DNA of 12,171 bases from an uncultured Pedobacter sp. (GTDB lineage Bacteria > Bacteroidota > Bacteroidia > Sphingobacteriales > Sphingobacteriaceae), in NCBI GenBank assembly GCA_946478755.1, contig CAMLDJ010000160.1, forward strand, positions 1 to 12,171, written 5' to 3'. The translations under genes were made by a program, and so were the position numbers. The notes beneath the pieces are model-generated. The model saw only the letters and a list, made by a program, of their open reading frames with translations, had not been told where the DNA came from and ran no database searches. Position 1 is the first letter of the stretch. The number at the start of each line of letters is the position of its first letter. Positions 2,123 through 12,171 of this stretch are shown piece after piece.

Positions 2123-3964
2123 ATGTATAAGCAGATTGGAATAGTAGCAATTCTATTTACAGGGCTATTTATTGTAAGCTTTACCTCCGTTAATTCAAAT
2201 GATACAAAAGAAATAGAAGCCAGTCCGCGTGAACGAAACATTCAACAAGAAGTTTTAAGTCAAATCGCATCCTTCCAGGATTATGTAAAAGACACCTTAC
2301 TTTTTGAGGTTAGTAAAGATAAGGTTGACGAACAAAGCGTTCAGCAAGCTTTCCTAAAATCAAGATTGCTGTTTAAAAGATTTGAATGGGCGGCGACATA
2401 TTTTACTGCCGATCTGACTAAGAGATTAAATGGCCCTCCTGTACAAGAGATCGAGAATGCTGATTTATTAGACTCTTCTTTAACCCGTGCTGTTGAACCA
2501 ATGGGGTTGCAGGTGATGGAGCAATTTATCTTTCCGAGATACGATACTGCGGGGAAAAAAGAGCTGATCAACGAAACCAGGCATTTAATAAAAAATACAG
2601 CGTATCTGATTTCTTATTTTGCTGATCATCAGCTTGCAGATTGGCGAATATTGGATGCGGCCAAGCTGGAGGTATTCAGGGTAATTGCTTTAGGAATTAC
2701 CGGATATGACAATGCGCTTTCTTTAAATGCTATGGAAGAATCATCCGTATCTTTAAAAAGCCTGCGGGACGTCCTTTGTTTCTATGTAGATAAAAAGAAA
2801 AAAACCACGTTAATGCAGGATCTGAATGCCTCCATAGCTTATCTGAATCATCATCCTAATTTTAACTCATTCGACAGAGCGGCATTTATTACAAGCTTCG
2901 GAAATAAGATCAGTACCGGAATAGCACAATTGGAGCAGGATTTACCGGGGCGTAAAATTAAATATAACCGAATGCTTAGGCAGGAAGTAAGAACATTGTT
3001 TGATTCCGATGCATTTAATGTAGATGCATTTTCTCCTGGTCCTGAATATCATATTACAGATGCTAAAGTGGAGTTGGGTAAAAGACTTTTTTATGATGAA
3101 TCCTTATCCGGTACCGGTACAAGAAGTTGTGCTTCCTGCCACAATCCTGATTTGGCTTTTACGGATGGACTGGCTAAGCCTGCAGATATTCATGTTCCCG
3201 AAAAACTGCTGACAAGAAATGTACCTACGTTACTCAACGCGGCTTTACAGTCAAATTATTTCTATGATATGAGGGCGTTAATGTTGGAGGATCAGGTGCG
3301 TGATGTAATCAGTAACAAGCAGGAGATGGACGGTTCGATTGATGCGATCATAAAATATGTGTCTGCAGATAAATCATATCGGTCGTTATTCGCGAGGGCT
3401 TTTTCTGCAAAGACTGAAAAAGGAATCAACCCGGATCAGGTAACGAATGCCCTGGCTTCCTATATTCGTAGCTTAACAAAACTCAATAGCCGGTTTGACG
3501 AGTATATGGGCGGTAAGGAAGATGCCTTGTCAAAGCAGGAATTGAAAGGTTTTAATTTATTTATGGGGAAAGCGAAATGTGCCACTTGTCATTTTGCTCC
3601 TTTGTTTAATGGAGTTACCCCCCCTAAGTACGTGGAGAGCGAAACGGAAGTGCTGGGGGTTCCTGTGTCCCAGGCAAATGCTACGCTGGATCCGGATTTG
3701 GGTTATTATGGCGTGATTGGTGTTGATTCCTATAAACATGCTTTCAAGATTCCCACCATCAGGAATATCAATAAAACTGCGCCTTATATGCACAATGGAG
3801 CATATCGGACTTTAGACGAGGTCATGGAATTTTATAATAACGGGGGAGCTGCGGGCTTAGGGATAAATCTTCCTAATCAAACGCTTGCTGAAGATAGTCT
3901 TCATCTCACTGAAAAAGAAAAAGCGGATATCGTTGTTTTTATGGAGAGTTTAGAAAGCAAGTAA
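2123..3964 (+). CDS. di-heme cytochrome c peroxidase family protein with N-terminal helical extension
   Basis: This protein belongs to the bacterial di-heme cytochrome c peroxidase / MauG family and is exported to the periplasm. Members reduce hydrogen peroxide with electrons from small cytochromes or quinols, or carry out related oxidations. Residues 4-22 are a hydrophobic signal or anchor segment without a lipobox. Residues about 35-290 form a helix-rich extension absent from the classic enzymes; the stretch around RLNGPPVQEIENAD (101-114) is reminiscent of imelysin-like N-terminal regions in other Bacteroidota peroxidases, from memory only. The catalytic part (about 305-613) has two heme-binding motifs, CASCH (336-340) and CATCH (486-490), and a late PYMHNGAYRTLDEVMEFY segment (554-571) whose Met556 is a candidate axial ligand. 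At 613 residues it is nearly twice the usual 320-350. It probably shares a transcript with the upstream phosphoesterase. Family assignment is firm; the physiological substrate is not known. Confidence 0.9.
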   Translation: MYKQIGIVAILFTGLFIVSFTSVNSNDTKEIEASPRERNIQQEVLSQIASFQDYVKDTLLFEVSKDKVDEQSVQQAFLKSRLLFKRFEWAATYFTADLTKRLNGPPVQEIENADLLDSSLTRAVEPMGLQVMEQFIFPRYDTAGKKELINETRHLIKNTAYLISYFADHQLADWRILDAAKLEVFRVIALGITGYDNALSLNAMEESSVSLKSLRDVLCFYVDKKKKTTLMQDLNASIAYLNHHPNFNSFDRAAFITSFGNKISTGIAQLEQDLPGRKIKYNRMLRQEVRTLFDSDAFNVDAFSPGPEYHITDAKVELGKRLFYDESLSGTGTRSCASCHNPDLAFTDGLAKPADIHVPEKLLTRNVPTLLNAALQSNYFYDMRALMLEDQVRDVISNKQEMDGSIDAIIKYVSADKSYRSLFARAFSAKTEKGINPDQVTNALASYIRSLTKLNSRFDEYMGGKEDALSKQELKGFNLFMGKAKCATCHFAPLFNGVTPPKYVESETEVLGVPVSQANATLDPDLGYYGVIGVDSYKHAFKIPTIRNINKTAPYMHNGAYRTLDEVMEFYNNGGAAGLGINLPNQTLAEDSLHLTEKEKADIVVFMESLESK

Positions 3965-6277: not shown

Positions 6278-6484
6278 ATGATAAAATTTAAACTGGAAGG
6301 CGAATTTATTCCCCTTATTCAATTATTAAAAGCAACCGGACTGGTGCAAAGCGGCGGTGAGGCGCAGACTGTTGTGGAAGATGGTCTGGTAAAGTACAAT
6401 GGAAAAGTTGACTACCGTAAGCGGCTAAAAGTTCGCGTGGGCGATGTCATTGATTTTATGTCACAAAAAATAACCGTAATTTAA
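6278..6484 (+). CDS. small S4-domain RNA-binding protein (YbcJ-like)
   Basis: A 68-residue protein consisting of one S4 domain, the RNA-binding fold also found in ribosomal protein S4 and pseudouridine synthases. The core pattern is present: hydrophobic start FIPLIQLLKATGL (10-22), SGGEAQ (25-30), a VxxGLVKYNGKV stretch (33-44), then the basic RKRLKVRVGDVI (47-58). It closely resembles E. coli YbcJ in length and motif order. The target RNA is unknown. Its TAA stop overlaps the aroB ATG by one base (TAATG), so the two are very likely translationally coupled. Confidence 0.87.
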   Translation: MIKFKLEGEFIPLIQLLKATGLVQSGGEAQTVVEDGLVKYNGKVDYRKRLKVRVGDVIDFMSQKITVI

Positions 6485-7548
6485 TGAACAAACTAGAGAG
6501 CGCAGGTCATACCATTCATTTTGAAACACAATTGGCTCCATTAACGGAGGTAATCGAATCCGGGAAATACAGTAAAATATTTGTTTTTGCCGATAGCAAT
6601 ACCTCCGAAGTATGTCTCCCCCTTTTCCGCGAAATGCTGGACGACTTCAATGGTTTCGATCTGATAGAGACCGACCCGGGAGAAGAAAATAAAAACATCG
6701 ATTTCTGCATAGGCATCTGGAAAACCCTGCTGGATTTTGGCGCCGACCGCAAGTGCCTGATGATTAACCTGGGTGGAGGTGTGATTACAGATATGGGCGG
6801 ATTTGTGGCCAGTACATATAAAAGAGGCATCGACTTTATCAATATTCCGACTACGTTACTTTCCCAGGTAGACGCTTCTGTAGGTGGTAAAACGGGTATT
6901 GATGTAGACAATGTGAAAAATATGGTGGGGACTTTTACCCTCCCGCAATCGGTTTTCATTGAAACTGCTTTTCTGAAAACATTGCCTGCAAGAGAACTCC
7001 TGTCGGGCTTTGCCGAAATGATCAAGCATGGCTTAATTGTGGACCACAATTATTATCACGAACTTAAAAACAGTGATTACCTGAAGATAGAACCGCAGGC
7101 CATTTACCGTTCTGTAGAAATAAAAAATGAGGTGGTCACTGAAGATCCGCATGAAAAAGGATTGAGAAAGATCTTAAATTTTGGCCATACCATTGGTCAT
7201 GCCGTGGAAACCTATGCGCTGATTAACGATGCCAAACCATTAACACATGGTGAAGCCATCGCTATAGGCATGATCTGCGAAGCCTTTCTATCGGCCAGGA
7301 ATAACACCTTGAACGAAGATGAGCTAGAGGACATCACGGCCTATATCACCAGCTTATACCCGCCCTATCACCTGAAAGCAGAAAGCTTTACGCAACTGAT
7401 GGAATTGATGCAAAGTGATAAAAAGAACGAAAACGGACAAATCATGTTTTCATTGCTAAGTGGTATCGGCAAATGTGATTACAACTGCAGGGTGTCTGAA
7501 AAAGACATTTTAGATAGTTTTGCTTACTTCAATGCCATTGGACGCTAA
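6484..7548 (+). CDS. aroB: 3-dehydroquinate synthase
   Basis: AroB converts DAHP to 3-dehydroquinate, the second step of the shikimate pathway, in the cytoplasm with NAD and a divalent metal (zinc or cobalt). Signature segments are GGGVITDMGGFVAS (97-110, nucleotide binding), IPTTLLSQVDASVGGKTGID (121-140), FAEMIKHGLI (176-185), ILNFGHTIGHAVE (230-242) and THGEAIAIGM (254-263). Glu178, His235 and His255 align with the expected metal ligands. At 354 residues it has the usual length. The start is fixed by the one-base overlap with the S4 gene. It lies just upstream of, but apparently separate from, the pheA-aroC operon, which has its own promoter at 7620-7650. Confidence 0.95.
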   Translation: MNKLESAGHTIHFETQLAPLTEVIESGKYSKIFVFADSNTSEVCLPLFREMLDDFNGFDLIETDPGEENKNIDFCIGIWKTLLDFGADRKCLMINLGGGVITDMGGFVASTYKRGIDFINIPTTLLSQVDASVGGKTGIDVDNVKNMVGTFTLPQSVFIETAFLKTLPARELLSGFAEMIKHGLIVDHNYYHELKNSDYLKIEPQAIYRSVEIKNEVVTEDPHEKGLRKILNFGHTIGHAVETYALINDAKPLTHGEAIAIGMICEAFLSARNNTLNEDELEDITAYITSLYPPYHLKAESFTQLMELMQSDKKNENGQIMFSLLSGIGKCDYNCRVSEKDILDSFAYFNAIGR

Positions 7549-7592
7549 AGAAATAGCTAAAATTTTGAGGCCGTGAATGCCTTGTATTAACA

Positions 7593-7611
7593 GTAAAAAA
7601 ATATTTTTTAC
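7593..7611. terminator. AT-rich palindrome after aroB, possible bidirectional weak terminator
   Basis: GTAAAAAA (7593-7600), loop ATA, TTTTTTAC (7604-7611) form a perfect 8-bp inverted repeat. It lies 45 bases after the aroB stop and 9 bases before the -33 box of the next promoter. The T-rich arm could help release transcripts from aroB. Alternatively the A/T tract could act as an upstream promoter element or binding site. The stem has only one G-C pair, so its stability as RNA is low. Confidence 0.3.
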
Positions 7612-7619
7612 ATTTAGCT

Positions 7620-7650
7620 ATTGACAAATAAAATTTTGTTAGTACATTTG
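7620..7650 (+). promoter_or_regulatory. Bacteroidota-type promoter of the aromatic amino acid operon
   Basis: ATTG (7620-7623), exactly 19 bases, then TACATTTG (7643-7650), a perfect TAnnTTTG box. Transcription should start near 7656, about 47 bases before the leader peptide ATG and about 210 before pheA. This is the best-matching promoter in the window. Confidence 0.65.
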
Positions 7651-7702
7651 AAAAAAAAATAAGGAAAGGATGTGGTAGCATGTCCGATCATAAATAGAAA
7701 AG

Positions 7703-7765
7703 ATGAAAAATATCACTACATATTGGTTTGGTTACTTTTACTACTTTAGTAAGAGCCGGGACTAA
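7703..7765 (+). CDS. aromatic-residue-rich leader peptide of the pheA operon
   Basis: A 20-codon frame (ATG 7703, TAA 7763-7765) whose residues 7-15 read YWFGYFYYF: four Tyr, three Phe and one Trp in nine positions. It is preceded by a purine-rich AGAAAAG rather than a strong Shine-Dalgarno. It has no likely function as a protein. Its position between the operon promoter and an intrinsic terminator, and its regulatory codons placed just before the switch segment (7755-7763), mark it as the sensing part of an attenuator. When charged tRNA for Phe, Tyr or possibly Trp is scarce, a ribosome would stall on the run; otherwise it would reach the stop codon and cover the switch segment. The design is that of E. 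coli pheL or trpL, though the sequence is not recognisably homologous. Confidence 0.82.
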   Translation: MKNITTYWFGYFYYFSKSRD

Positions 7766-7810
7766 TATGCAATGATATCAACACGATAAATGTATACGAA
7801 AAGTCCCGGC
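7755..7810 (+). promoter_or_regulatory. antiterminator pairing of the pheA-operon attenuator
   Basis: GCCGGGACT (7755-7763), spanning the end of the leader peptide codons and the first base of its stop, is perfectly complementary to AGTCCCGGC (7802-7810), which is the 5' arm of the terminator. The 7755-7763 segment is identical to the terminator 3' arm (7816-7824). The 5' arm can therefore pair either backwards (antiterminator, 9 bp, loop of 38) or forwards (terminator), but not both. A ribosome ending at 7763-7765 masks the upstream partner and favours termination. One stalled early in the aromatic run leaves it free. Confidence 0.75.
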
Positions 7811-7830
7811 CAAACGCCGGGACTTTTTTT
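7799..7830 (+). terminator. intrinsic terminator (attenuator) before pheA
   Basis: The stem is AGTCCCGGC (7802-7810), the loop CAAAC, and the 3' arm GCCGGGACT (7816-7824), with the last T continuing into a run of seven T (7824-7830). Three A before the stem can extend it to 12 bp by pairing with the first T. This is a strong GC-rich rho-independent terminator. It lies 38 bases before the pheA start codon and after the operon promoter, so it must be bypassed for the operon to be expressed. Confidence 0.88.
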
Positions 7831-7867
7831 GTTTAACGCAAAGAGAAAAAATGGTAAAACTAATCTA

Positions 7868-8701
7868 ATGAAGAAAGGAACAAGAGTAGCAATTCAAGGC
7901 ATTAAAGCATCTTTTCACGAAGAAGCAGCTTTCAAATTTTTTGGAAAAGATATCGAGACGATCGAGTGTAATTCTTTTAAGCAAACTTGCGAGAGTCTGG
8001 AAAATAAGGAAGCTGACTTTGTAGTCATGGCTATAGAAAATTCTATCGCCGGCAGCTTATTACCTAACTACACCTTGATCCGCGAGTATAACTTTGCTGT
8101 AGTAGGTGAAGTATACCTGCCGATCCAGCTGCACCTGATGGCTTTGCCGGGTGTGAAATTTGAAGATGTCCGGTTTGCAACCTCCCACCCTATTGCCATC
8201 CGCCAATGCGTAGATTTCTTTTATGACTACCCACATATTCAGGTAATTGAAGGCAATGACACTGCAGCCTGTGCCAAACGCATCAAAGAGGAACAACTAA
8301 CGGATACGGTTGCCATTGCCAATACCTTGGCTGCTGAACTGTATGGATTGAACATCATAGAACGGAGGATAGAATCCAACAAGAAGAATTATACCCGGTT
8401 CCTGATCCTAAGGCTGGATAAAACGGAAGACCTGAAAGAGATCAATAAGGCCTCTATCTGTTTCCAGGTTGGCAATCACGTAGGTGCATTATCCAAAGTA
8501 CTCAATATTTTTGCAGAGCAGCAGGTTAACCTTACCAAAATACAGAGCATGCCGGTTTTAGGCAAGCGCAACGACTATTATTTCTATGTGGACATGGAAT
8601 GGAATAACATGGAAAACTATGATAAAGCCGTCCGTCAGGCATTAAAATATACTGTAAACTTTAACATTATGGGCGAATATCAGAAAAATGATCAGGTGTG
8701 A
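7868..8701 (+). CDS. pheA: prephenate dehydratase (monofunctional) with ACT domain
   Basis: This enzyme converts prephenate to phenylpyruvate, the committed step to phenylalanine. Residues 1-185 are the catalytic prephenate dehydratase domain with ENSIAGS (57-63) and the catalytic NYTRF motif (174-178). Residues about 194-270 are an ACT regulatory domain with the GAL motif (206-208). The ESRP motif that normally helps bind phenylalanine reads QSMP (226-229). There is no chorismate mutase domain, unlike E. coli PheA; that activity is supplied by the next gene. An in-frame ATG at 7790 is rejected because it lies inside the attenuator, before the terminator stem; the ATG at 7868 gives 277 residues, normal for the family. 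No clear Shine-Dalgarno is present. It is the first structural gene after the attenuator. Confidence 0.93.
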   Translation: MKKGTRVAIQGIKASFHEEAAFKFFGKDIETIECNSFKQTCESLENKEADFVVMAIENSIAGSLLPNYTLIREYNFAVVGEVYLPIQLHLMALPGVKFEDVRFATSHPIAIRQCVDFFYDYPHIQVIEGNDTAACAKRIKEEQLTDTVAIANTLAAELYGLNIIERRIESNKKNYTRFLILRLDKTEDLKEINKASICFQVGNHVGALSKVLNIFAEQQVNLTKIQSMPVLGKRNDYYFYVDMEWNNMENYDKAVRQALKYTVNFNIMGEYQKNDQV

Positions 8702-8753: not shown

Positions 8754-9893
8754 ATGAAACTACAATTGAACATTCAGCCATTAAACACATGGCTTGACAT
8801 TAAAAACGAACCTTTAATCATTTCCGGACCATGCAGTGCGGAAACTGAAGAACAATTATTAACTACAGCCCATTTACTGGCAGCAACCGGAAAAGTATCG
8901 GTTTTAAGAGCAGGTATATGGAAGCCACGTACCCGTCCGGGAGAATTTGAAGGCATTGGCAGCATCGGACTTCAGTGGTTAAAAAGAGCCAAAGAAGAAA
9001 CCGGTTTACCTACGGCTGTTGAAGTAGCAAATGCAAAACATGTTGAAGAGGCTTTGGCTGCAGGTGTCGATATCCTTTGGATCGGAGCACGTTCAACCGT
9101 AAACCCTTTTACTGTACAGGAAATTGCTGATGCTTTGCAGGGAGTAGATATCCCGGTGTTGGTTAAGAACCCGGTAAACCCTGATCTGCAGTTATGGGCA
9201 GGTGCATTAGAGCGCATCAATCGTGCAGGCATCACCAAACTGGGTGCTATTCACCGTGGTTTCTCTTCATTCGAGAAAAGCTCTTTCCGTAATGAGCCGA
9301 TGTGGGAACTGGCTATCCAGCTGAAAACATTATTGCCTGACCTGCCGATCATCAATGATCCAAGTCACATCTGCGGTAACCGCGAACTGATCCCTTACAT
9401 CTCTCAGAAAGCATTGGATCTGGACATGCAGGGCTTAATGATCGAATCGCACGTAGATCCTTCAGTAGCCTGGACAGATGCCAAACAACAAGTTACTCCT
9501 GCAGCACTTGGAGAACTGGCTGAGCGTTTAACGGTTCGCGAGCCGGAATCTAAAAACGAGCAATTCACCGATCAGCTGGCAGACCTGCGTAAGCAAATTG
9601 ATAAAATAGACGATATTCTATTACAGAAATTAGGCGAACGCATGGCAATTGTTGGTAAAATCGGCGAATTTAAACGCGATAACCAGGTTACTATACTCCA
9701 GGTAAACCGCTGGGATGCCATCATCAAAAAAGGTACTTCATTTGCGAAAGCTTTAAACCTGGATCTAAACTTTACAGAAAAGTTCCTTGAGCTTGTTCAT
9801 GGCGAATCTATTCGTAAACAAACGGAGATCATGAATGCCGGCAAAGCAGAAAAAGGCATTGCAGCAGAGGCGCATACTGAAGTTAAATCTTAG
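8754..9893 (+). CDS. bifunctional DAHP synthase (type I-beta) / chorismate mutase
   Basis: This fusion carries the first step of the shikimate pathway (erythrose 4-phosphate plus phosphoenolpyruvate to DAHP) and chorismate mutase (chorismate to prephenate). Residues 1-260 are the synthase of the KDO8P-synthase-like I-beta group: GPCSAE (25-30), KPRTRPGEFEG (57-67), KNP (138-140), IHRGFSS (166-172), NDPSHICGNR (201-210), and ESHVDP (231-236). Residues about 274-355 are an AroQ-type chorismate mutase: LRKQIDKIDDILLQKLGERM (278-297) then KIGEFKR (302-308). In the Porphyromonas gingivalis enzyme of the same layout the mutase domain also mediates feedback inhibition by prephenate. A low-complexity tail (361-379) follows. 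It starts 52 bases after pheA, and only 2 bases separate it from aroA. Confidence 0.93.
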   Translation: MKLQLNIQPLNTWLDIKNEPLIISGPCSAETEEQLLTTAHLLAATGKVSVLRAGIWKPRTRPGEFEGIGSIGLQWLKRAKEETGLPTAVEVANAKHVEEALAAGVDILWIGARSTVNPFTVQEIADALQGVDIPVLVKNPVNPDLQLWAGALERINRAGITKLGAIHRGFSSFEKSSFRNEPMWELAIQLKTLLPDLPIINDPSHICGNRELIPYISQKALDLDMQGLMIESHVDPSVAWTDAKQQVTPAALGELAERLTVREPESKNEQFTDQLADLRKQIDKIDDILLQKLGERMAIVGKIGEFKRDNQVTILQVNRWDAIIKKGTSFAKALNLDLNFTEKFLELVHGESIRKQTEIMNAGKAEKGIAAEAHTEVKS

Positions 9894-9895
9894 CA

Positions 9896-11155
9896 ATGAG
9901 TAAAAACGCAATTGTTTCTTTTAAAGGGATTAAAGATATAAATGCTGAAATAACCTTAACAGGTTCAAAAAGCGAAAGCAACAGGGCGCTGATCATCAGC
10001 GCCCTGTCTGAGGGGCTGGTTCAAATAAATAACCTCTCGGATGCAGCAGATACAGTGATTCTGAACAACATCCTTAACCAGGTAAAAGCAAATCAGGACC
10101 AGGATAATTACCTGACCGTAGATGTAGGACATGCCGGTACCGCAATGCGTTTTTTAACGGCATACCTGTCTATTGCAAATGGAATGTTTCACCTTACCGG
10201 TTCGGGAAGGATGAAAGAACGGCCGGTAAAGCTACTGGTTGAAGCGCTTCAGCAACTCGGTGCAGACGTTCAGTATGCGGGACAGGAAGGTTATCCACCA
10301 CTCAACATCAATAATGGCTTTAAACAAAGCAGCCGGTTAGTTAAGATTCCAGGTAACATCAGCAGCCAGTATTTATCTGCATTGTTGATGATTGCCCCTT
10401 CGTTACCATTGGGCCTCTCTCTGGAAATCGAGGGCGACCTGACTTCAAGGCCATATCTTGAGATGACCTTAAGCATGCTTCAGGAAGCAGGGATTACCCA
10501 TCAATGGGACAACAACACCATTCACATCGATCATCAATCCTTTAAACACTGCAGCTTAACTGTGGAGCCCGACTGGAGTGCAGCCTCCTACTGGTACAGC
10601 ATTGCAGCTTTGGCGGATCAGGCGAGTATCACCTTGCCACATTTAAAGGAGAAGAGTTTACAGGGCGATAGCAAGATCAATGACATTATGGTTCCTTTTG
10701 GGGTGCGCACCTCGCACGTCCCTAATGGCATTGCTTTAAAGTCCGGCACTTCAGTTGCCATTGCAGAAGTATTGAACCTAAAGAATTGTCCTGATCTGGC
10801 ACAAACCATTATTGTTTGCGCGGCAGCAAAAGGCCTTAATCTTTCTTTTACAGGACTGGAAACGCTAAAAATTAAAGAGACCAACAGAATTCTTGCTTTA
10901 CAGCAGGAACTGGCGAAAATTGGCGTCTTGCTTATTGAAGACGATGAAGTCTATACTTTAAACTGTGACCAGCTGAGTTTCCCGGAGAAAGTATGTTTTC
11001 AGACCTATGATGACCACCGGATGGCCATGGCCTTTGCACCGCTGAGCCTTTTTATCAAGGAAGTAGAAGTGGAAGATTACCAGGTTGTAGAGAAATCATA
11101 TCCTGATTTCTGGAAAGACCTGGAAAAAGCAGGGTTTACAGTCAGGGAAATTTAG
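9896..11155 (+). CDS. aroA: 3-phosphoshikimate 1-carboxyvinyltransferase (EPSP synthase)
   Basis: AroA joins shikimate 3-phosphate and phosphoenolpyruvate to form EPSP, the sixth shikimate step and the target of glyphosate. Visible active-site motifs are GSKSESNR (23-30, with Lys25, Ser26, Arg30), GHAGTAMRFL (78-87), RMKERP (105-110), SSQ (156-158), PDWSAASY (225-232), NCPDLAQT (297-304, Asp300 as the likely catalytic base), KETNR (327-331), DDHRMAM (372-378) and EKSYPDFW (399-406). The length of 419 residues is close to the 427 of E. coli. The residue corresponding to Pro101 in E. coli is Phe86. It follows the DAHP synthase stop by two bases and is clearly cotranscribed. A 27-base near-perfect palindrome lies inside the gene at 9981-10007. 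Confidence 0.95.
   Translation: MSKNAIVSFKGIKDINAEITLTGSKSESNRALIISALSEGLVQINNLSDAADTVILNNILNQVKANQDQDNYLTVDVGHAGTAMRFLTAYLSIANGMFHLTGSGRMKERPVKLLVEALQQLGADVQYAGQEGYPPLNINNGFKQSSRLVKIPGNISSQYLSALLMIAPSLPLGLSLEIEGDLTSRPYLEMTLSMLQEAGITHQWDNNTIHIDHQSFKHCSLTVEPDWSAASYWYSIAALADQASITLPHLKEKSLQGDSKINDIMVPFGVRTSHVPNGIALKSGTSVAIAEVLNLKNCPDLAQTIIVCAAAKGLNLSFTGLETLKIKETNRILALQQELAKIGVLLIEDDEVYTLNCDQLSFPEKVCFQTYDDHRMAMAFAPLSLFIKEVEVEDYQVVEKSYPDFWKDLEKAGFTVREI
9981..10007. repeat. 27-base palindrome inside aroA
   Basis: ACAGGGCGCTGAT (9981-9993) is the exact reverse complement of ATCAGCGCCCTGT (9995-10007), with a single C between. As RNA it would fold into about 11 bp with a 5-base loop AUCAU, a very stable GC-rich hairpin about 85 bases downstream of the aroA start codon. 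It encodes residues 29-37, overlapping the conserved active-site segment. No T run follows, so it is not an intrinsic terminator. Confidence 0.7.
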
Positions 11156-11214: not shown

Positions 11215-12171
11215 ATGGCAGGCAATACATTTGGTCAGTTATTTCGCATCAGCACCTTCGGCGAATCACACGGAGTAGCTATCGGTGTTATTTTAGATGG
11301 CTGCCCGGCACAATTACCGATCGACCTGGAATTTATTCAGTCAGAATTGGATAAACGCAGGCCCGGCCAGTCAAAGATCACTACTCAACGTAAAGAAAGC
11401 GACACTGTTCAGATCTTATCGGGAACATTTGAAGGCAAAAGCACCGGAACACCAATTGCGATGCTGATCCCGAATGAAGACCAGCGGAGTAAGGATTACA
11501 GTCACAATACCGATGTTTACCGTCCCTCACATGCAGATTATACCTACGATGCCAAATACGGGATCCGCGATCACCGTGGCGGTGGGCGTTCATCTGCCAG
11601 GGAAACTGCAGCCCGCGTAGCAGCAGGTGCAATTGCAAAATTGTTGTTAAAACACCATGGCATCGAAATTTTTGCACATGTTTCTGCCGTTGGCCAGATA
11701 CAGGCGCCCAACTTAGCTCAAGAGGATGTCAGCACCTTGCTTGCCATCAGGGAAGATAACATTGTCCGCTGCGCTGATCCGGCAACGGCCCATCAGATGA
11801 TTGAGTTTATTGACGGAGTGAGAAAGGATGGAGATACGGTAGGCGGAAAGGTAAGCTGCATCATCAAAAACTGTCCGGTTGGCTTAGGCGAGCCGGTATT
11901 TGATAAACTGCATGCCGACCTTGGAAAGGCGATGCTGAGCATGAATGCGGTACATGGTTTTGAATATGGATCGGGATTTGCCGGCAGTGAAATGAGAGGT
12001 TCCGAGCACAACGATATTTTTCTTGCAGCAGAAGGCGGCCCCAAGACGCTAACTAATTTTTCGGGCGGAATACAGGGCGGCATTTCTAACGGCATGGAGA
12101 TCAATTTCACGGTTGACTTCAAACCGGTCGCGACGATCATGCATAACAAGCAGACCATTAATGCAGCACGC
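11215..12171 (+). CDS. aroC: chorismate synthase, 3' end missing (window edge)
   Basis: AroC converts EPSP to chorismate, the last common step of aromatic biosynthesis, and needs reduced FMN. The 319 visible codons run in frame to the window end; the family is usually about 355-365 residues, so about 40 are missing. Motifs are FGESHG (15-20, with His19), KRRPGQS (47-53), RPSHADYTY (103-111, with His106 matching a catalytic His of the fungal enzyme), [18 protein letters not shown] (122-139), [13 protein letters not shown] (243-255) and [11 protein letters not shown] (284-294). The ATG at 11215 puts the first residues ([11 protein letters not shown]) where family members begin. It starts 59 bases after aroA in the same operon. 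A TACATTTA box in this gap (11173-11180) lacks a partner box, so an internal promoter is doubtful. Confidence 0.95.

Follow-up and report, generated by a model that had tools for sequence, protein, structure and literature searches.

A probable leader-peptide attenuator with tyrosine and phenylalanine codons upstream of pheA and shikimate pathway genes in a Pedobacter-like bacterium and its relatives

Genes and leader region of the window

The window, that is, the whole stretch of 12,171 nt analysed here, has a Pedobacter-like, soil-type bacterium as its host. The genes aroB, pheA, a DAHP synthase/chorismate mutase fusion, aroA and aroC follow each other on the same strand, with a leader region between aroB and pheA (Table 1), and pheA to aroC are presumably read as a single transcript. 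The pheA product shares 94% identity with its counterpart in a Pedobacter MAG, and its closest neighbours on the tree were Pedobacter. Adjacency of the fusion gene to pheA was found by tblastn in all 80 named loci, with gaps of about -8 to 183 nt, and an aroA match was present in 80/80 as well.

Homology of pheA to its relatives starts at 7868; the longest ORF call is 7790-8701, which runs back through the terminator described below. Longest-ORF calling pulls pheA into the terminator in this way, and automatic annotation could conceal the leader. An acid phosphatase-like protein (TIGR03397, above cut-off) is encoded beside a MauG/MbnH-like di-heme protein elsewhere in the window, at 722-2092 and 2123-3964; for the di-heme protein the best models were below cut-off.

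Table 1. Features of the window; positions are counted from its first nucleotide.
Feature	Position	Strand	Remarks
aroB	6484-7548	+	upstream of leader region
Promoter-like pattern	7621-7650	+	TTG (7621), 19 nt, TACATTTG (7643-7650); pattern match
Leader ORF	7703-7765	+	20 codons, MKNITTYWFGYFYYFSKSRD; YWFGYFYYF at residues 7-15
Segment 1	7719-7743	+	aromatic-run RNA; folds; can pair with 7747-7769
Segment 2	7755-7763	+	GCCGGGACT; end of leader ORF; antiterminator partner of segment 3
Intrinsic terminator	7798-7834	+	hairpin 7798-7828 plus T tract; hairpin -21.3 kcal/mol
Segment 3	7802-7810	+	AGTCCCGGC; common to antiterminator and terminator
Segment 4	7816-7824	+	GCCGGGACT; terminator 3' arm, followed by TTTTTTGTTT
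pheA, prephenate dehydratase	7868-8701	+	NF008865, 190.8 bits, below the curated cut-off of 219
DAHP synthase fused to chorismate mutase	8754-9893	+	NF006421, 171 bits, and NF006691, 52 bits; both below curated cut-offs
aroA, 3-phosphoshikimate 1-carboxyvinyltransferase	9896-11155	+	TIGR01356, above cut-off
aroC, chorismate synthase	11215-12171	+	TIGR00033, above cut-off; runs off the window

A first-pass annotation, made from the letters alone, had described a promoter, a 20-codon frame with a run of aromatic codons, a nine-base segment occurring both at the end of that frame and as the 3' arm of a strong terminator, and a 5' arm able to pair with either copy. Each of these elements was recovered: the frame with its aromatic run, the two copies of GCCGGGACT, and AGTCCCGGC as the complement of both. 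The regulatory codons of the frame are Y7, W8, F9, Y11, F12, Y13, Y14 and F15, and the final T of segment 2 is the first base of the leader stop codon. A terminator scan of 7400-8000 returned one site only, the hairpin at 7798-7828, with 13 pairs and a T tract (0.2 sites in shuffles), and the fold of 7680-7860 had a z of -5.5, with none of 200 shuffles equally low. The antiterminator, in which segment 3 pairs with segment 2, shares the terminator 5' arm, making the two structures mutually exclusive. Segment 1 can pair with 7747-7769 through an outer helix, CAUAU...AUAUG, and an inner helix, CUUUUACU...AGUAAGAG.

The promoter-like sequences were likewise present, TTGACA at 7621-7626 and TACATTTG at 7643-7650. 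A sigma-70 scan gave 6 sites, compared with 2.5 in shuffles. Over these we prefer TTG-N19-TAnnTTTG, which we take to be the promoter type of Bacteroidota, as the best description of the window promoter. With a spacing of 18-22 nt, the same pattern occurs in the 110 nt preceding the leader in 70 of 99 cases from the order and in 7 of 19 from outside it (samples below); in shuffles its frequency was 0.3%. The distance from the TAnnTTTG box to the leader ATG is 24-27 nt in 60 of the 73 order leaders that have the box, compared with 60 nt in the window. In the window, a five-codon ORF, MSDHK (7680-7697), is located between promoter and leader ORF.

The leader and its switch segments in relatives

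We sampled 101 genomes evenly across the order to which a Pedobacter genome belongs and read the sequence upstream of pheA in each; a leader was defined by an ATG start and at least six aromatic residues within nine codons. Such a leader preceded pheA in 98 of the 101 genomes (1.1% in Markov sequences; 2/101 on the reverse strand), and two more leaders with a TTG start (L091 and L092) brought the count to 100. Genome G090 (locus L140) was the only one of the 101 with pheA and no leader; in its place, pheA is closely preceded by the end of an open frame some 134 residues long.

Outside the order, searches with proteins and a Pfam model identified a prephenate dehydratase in 31 of 119 genomes of the class and none in 88. 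Four of the 31 were already part of the order sample, and the class-level count therefore rests on 27 genomes: 17 carried a leader (Markov 0/540; reverse strand 0/27), 19 did so at a looser cut-off, and 8 had none even at the looser one. Altogether 119 leaders were kept, 100 from the order and 19 from outside. An aromatic short ORF was also found in 79 of the 80 named loci, the remaining contig (L001) starting too late to include one. Searching six genomes for the aromatic run as a pattern, with 3 mismatches allowed, proved too loose, since the reversed control gave more matches in each of them. Region 7600-7900 had no match in the phage collection.

A terminator-like hairpin was located downstream of all 100 order leaders (9% of Markov sequences by the same rule), and the strict score was reached in 96 of them against 0/500 Markov sequences. 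The same hairpin followed all 19 leaders from outside the order (Markov 25%), 18 of them at the middle score, for which the Markov frequency was 1.1%.

Of 199 leaders, 194 have the best partner of the hairpin 5' arm starting 6-14 nt past the last aromatic codon; some genomes enter this set twice, unlike in the samples of 101 and 27. In one leader (L206) the best partner lies far downstream, and in 4 of the 100 order leaders it falls inside the aromatic run and not beyond it. The antiterminator pairing score was 15.5 or higher in 90 of the 100 order leaders and lower in 10, 15.5 being the 95% point of a null whose search region was longer than that of the count using it.

The position of segment 2 relative to the stop codon is also constrained. 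In 80 of the 100 order leaders its last base doubles as the first of the stop codon; among the 96 in which segment 2 follows the run, its end lies from 3 nt upstream to 14 nt downstream of that stop-codon base in 94, and in the other two the stop is 19-20 nt beyond segment 2. For 9 of the 19 leaders outside the order the stop lies 5-26 nt beyond segment 2, which weakens the masking argument there.

The segments were found to change together, as in L117 (AGCCAGGACT/GGTCCTGGCT/AGCCAGGACC), L196 (AGGCGGGA/TCCCGCCT/AGGCGGGA) and L197 (GTCAGGATT/AATCCTGAT/ATCAGGATT). For covariation, 49 diverse sequences, chosen from 180 by a similarity cut, were aligned with MAFFT (alignment A1). The terminator showed 42 double-changed cells against 8.3 in shuffles, a value reached by none of the 500 shuffles. 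For the antiterminator there were 6 double-changed pairs against 2.0, reached by 1/500; the signal is modest (7 cells; 89.1% paired, compared with 85.7% in shuffles), and we regard it as weaker evidence than that for the terminator. On the same 49 sequences RNAalifold predicted the terminator alone. In the structure formed by segments 1 and 2, the inner helix was 90.9% paired and the whole structure 73.0%, compared with 71.2% in shuffles (2/500 reach this value); slid versions reached 51.6% at most.

Each leader was in addition compared with arms permuted among the leaders. In the order (24 arm types) the mean pairing with the own arm was 18.8, against 16.6 for permuted arms, and outside it (19 leaders) 17.8 against 13.5; neither value was reached by any of 10,000 permutations. 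The own arm was the best of all 19 in 8 of the 19 leaders from outside the order.

The comparison among relatives, which the first-pass annotation had proposed as a check, found the aromatic run, the co-varying switch segments and the operon all conserved. A terminator kept where the run or the duplicated segment had been lost, the pattern named there as contrary evidence, was looked for in the relatives and did not appear. By this comparison, the reading of the region as an attenuator is strongly supported.

Amino acids presumably read by the leader, and other explanations

Tyr and Phe codons are present in every one of the 119 kept leaders. Trp occurs in 30 of the 100 order leaders and in 4 of the 19 from outside (it is missing from 70 and 15, respectively), and on a quick pheA tree for the Pedobacter-rich set described below, in which 23 of 77 inner branches were unsupported, its presence changed at least 12 times. 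In view of this coming and going we take Tyr and Phe together as the conserved signal and Trp as optional; Tyr and Phe would be the presumed triggers. The first-pass annotation had proposed that Tyr, Phe and Trp are all sensed: its Tyr and Phe components are borne out in every leader, and a conserved set of Tyr, Phe and Trp codons was not found in the 119.

That the same attenuator answers physiologically to all three amino acids, Trp included, is possible and on the whole doubtful. The window leader does have one Trp codon in its run, W8, at which a stall would free segment 2 in the folding model described below; the operon includes the chorismate trunk, which feeds all three pathways; and Trp occurs in 45 of 80 leaders of a Pedobacter-rich set, which comprises the window plus its named close relatives. 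Against it stand the frequent lack of Trp, its repeated changes on the tree, and separate Trp-run leaders upstream of trpE in the same family. The Trp codon of the window leader may add a response to Trp, and is not a defining part of the Tyr/Phe leader.

The trpE leaders come from a comparison of pathways, in which regions upstream of trpE and hisG were examined in 26 genomes of the same family, using 22 strong PF04715 matches for trpE (19 weaker places were dropped) and 22 matches for hisG. Runs of Phe/Tyr codons preceded pheA in 98/101 cases, runs of Trp codons preceded trpE in 17/22 and runs of His codons preceded hisG in 21/22, with counts of 0 to 2 for runs of an amino acid wrong for the pathway. 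Codon identity thus follows the pathway, and we regard this match as the strongest argument for amino-acid sensing.

The anatomy of the switch is clearest at pheA. The Trp-run leader ORFs before trpE (L219-L240; for example MTINTTIRNWWWPVKNSAGSTYNGID in L225) numbered 20 of 22 by a looser rule; a terminator was found in 19 of these 20, and segment 2 at a score of 15.5 or higher in just 9. For the His-run leader ORFs before hisG (L249-L270; for example MPVVFTHHVHFHHRHCGDR in L267), an intrinsic terminator was detected in only 1 of 22, and the four leaders that were folded showed a hairpin at or just past the end of the His run. These leaders may act on translation or through Rho.

The composition of the run was analysed in 88 distinct leaders, taking the nine codons that end with the last aromatic one. 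Tyr, Phe or Trp accounted for 678 of the 792 codons (86%), Leu for 3 and Cys for none, compared with an expectation, from position-wise base make-up, of 68% aromatic codons and 11% Cys. Judged from the leader sequences, the run codons are selected as codons. The lack of Cys speaks against a very improbable alternative, namely that the hairpin is the constitutive terminator of the upstream aroB unit, that the ORF is a fortuitous T-rich frame and that pheA starts further downstream. The hairpin is indeed located in the aroB-pheA interval, with both genes on its strand, but the promoter-like pattern before the leader is conserved, and so are the aromatic run, the distance from the run to segment 2 and the repeated segment.

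An arrest peptide, in which the nascent peptide and not codon starvation stalls the ribosome, is unlikely. TnaC is a peptide that stalls the ribosome in response to Trp. Among 30 distinct 20-residue leaders with a run ending at residue 15, T6-Y7, G10 and Y11-F12-Y13 are highly conserved, as an arrest peptide might be. Several synonymous sites in the same leaders are nearly fixed, however, with TAT at 7 and TAC at 11 and 13; this fits the same RNA doubling as segment 1, and the conservation may in part come from a constraint on the RNA. Moreover, Tyr, Phe and Trp interchange and codons are inserted, and leaders from outside the order diverge widely yet stay aromatic-rich, the peptide being conserved in close relatives and not across the class. 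An arrest that rises with the free amino acid would also have the wrong sign for a biosynthetic operon.

Least probable is a riboswitch or T-box binding an amino acid or an uncharged tRNA directly. Such elements likewise place a terminator before an amino-acid operon, a layout that the region matches. However, the only Rfam matches in the window up to an E of 1 were two unrelated sRNAs at chance level, BSnc120 (E 0.07) and FuFi-1 (E 0.32), far below their gathering scores, and no match at gathering score was obtained in the 10 related loci scanned; the conserved RNA consists of the coding run and the switch.

Proposed mechanism and comparison with known systems

We consider it very likely that the operon of pheA, DAHP synthase/chorismate mutase, aroA and aroC is under the control of a ribosome-mediated transcription attenuator like those of trp and phe. 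What points to it, in the window and by comparison, is a leader ORF biased towards aromatic codons, three segments that are conserved, co-vary and keep their spacing, and the gene order; from these we infer the stalling and the termination decision.

In the proposed mechanism, RNA polymerase would start upstream of the leader ORF with a ribosome following. When charged tRNA-Tyr or tRNA-Phe is scarce, the ribosome would stall within the aromatic run, at codons 7-15, and cover segment 1, so that segment 2 would be available for pairing with segment 3; the terminator formed by segments 3 and 4 would then not arise in time, and the operon would be transcribed. With both tRNAs plentiful, the ribosome would reach codons 16-21 and cover segment 2, segment 3 would pair with segment 4, and transcription would stop near 7830.

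A model of nascent-RNA folding was run on two assumptions, a footprint reaching 17 nt behind and 12 nt ahead, and a transcript start at 7658. The probability of the pairing between segments 2 and 3 was 0.96-0.99 with the A site at codons 7-14, 0.65 at codon 15 and 0 at codons 16-21; the aromatic run ends, therefore, about where stalls stop aiding the antiterminator. A stall at the regulatory codons frees the antiterminator and a ribosome at the stop codon blocks it, both in the window model, which depends on the assumed footprint, and by the spacing. Once segment 4 was made, the terminator won at equilibrium in every ribosome state (probability of at least 0.98), so the antiterminator must act kinetically. 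In the model run without a ribosome, segments 2 and 3 paired (0.92) before segment 4 existed and the pairing of segments 1 and 2 lost to it; the latter, as a "protector", is thus not clearly effective.

Related elements have been reported. In Flavobacterium psychrophilum and other Flavobacteriaceae, a structured 5' element lies upstream of pheA, and "strong clues" are mentioned for leader-peptide attenuation before amino-acid operons (PMC9723704). This element belongs to the same gene in the same phylum, likewise has no Rfam match, and is a candidate counterpart; the passages cited describe it without a peptide, a switch or an amino acid for pheA (PMC9723704). The first-pass annotation had known of no published description for the lineage. 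For Sphingobacteriaceae this stands, as no description of a pheA leader was among the matches listed in the open-access literature; the Flavobacterium report tempers it.

In Bacteroides thetaiotaomicron, a member of the same phylum, long 5' UTRs contain short ORFs that are described as reminiscent of attenuation leader peptides, the example in the section cited being a hypothetical gene and not an aromatic operon (PMC7366714). Upstream ORFs with Phe/Tyr codons have been noted at shikimate genes (PMC6429828), and attenuation was proposed for uORFC-13-1 before aroF in Acholeplasma (PMC8632094). Both are, like the Pedobacter leader, aromatic-codon ORFs before shikimate genes, and the portions cited do not establish identity with it. 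The Bacteroid-trp motif (RF01692), a candidate cis-regulatory RNA of Bacteroidetes (PMC2864571), had no match in the window up to an E of 1 or in the 10 loci at gathering score. According to the statement cited from a 2010 survey, before the survey's own case in Firmicutes no leader-peptide system had been shown outside Proteobacteria and Actinobacteria, the atypical ermC aside (PMC2965389).

The mechanism is classical and probably little described in Bacteroidota; the points of interest are that Tyr and Phe are mixed, that the gene order spans the shikimate pathway and that the leader is widespread in Bacteroidia. We lean, with some reserve, towards the wider view that leader-peptide attenuation is old and general in Bacteroidota and that the Tyr/Phe leader integrates two amino acids, parallel to the Trp leaders of trpE and the His leaders of hisG, the latter apparently without an intrinsic terminator. 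If this is true, a large bacterial group runs an attenuation regulon so far described just in passing, and a mechanism known mainly from Proteobacteria is part of how aromatic amino acids are controlled in one order of Bacteroidia and in further members of the class. The mixture of Tyr and Phe poses a testable question, that of one leader integrating two amino acids, for which the trpE and hisG leaders are built-in controls.

In E. coli, the pheL attenuator precedes pheA, and its leader is rich in Phe and has no Tyr. The region described here resembles it in the short leader ORF with aromatic codons, the alternative hairpins, the intrinsic terminator and pheA downstream, and differs from it in that Tyr and Phe alternate and that DAHP synthase, aroA and aroC follow. 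With E. coli trpL it shares the logic of the 1:2, 2:3 and 3:4 pairings and regulatory codons that end shortly before segment 2; unlike trpL, it has a different amino acid signal, a segment 2 whose last base is the first of the stop codon in most order leaders, and a 1:2 protector that is putative.
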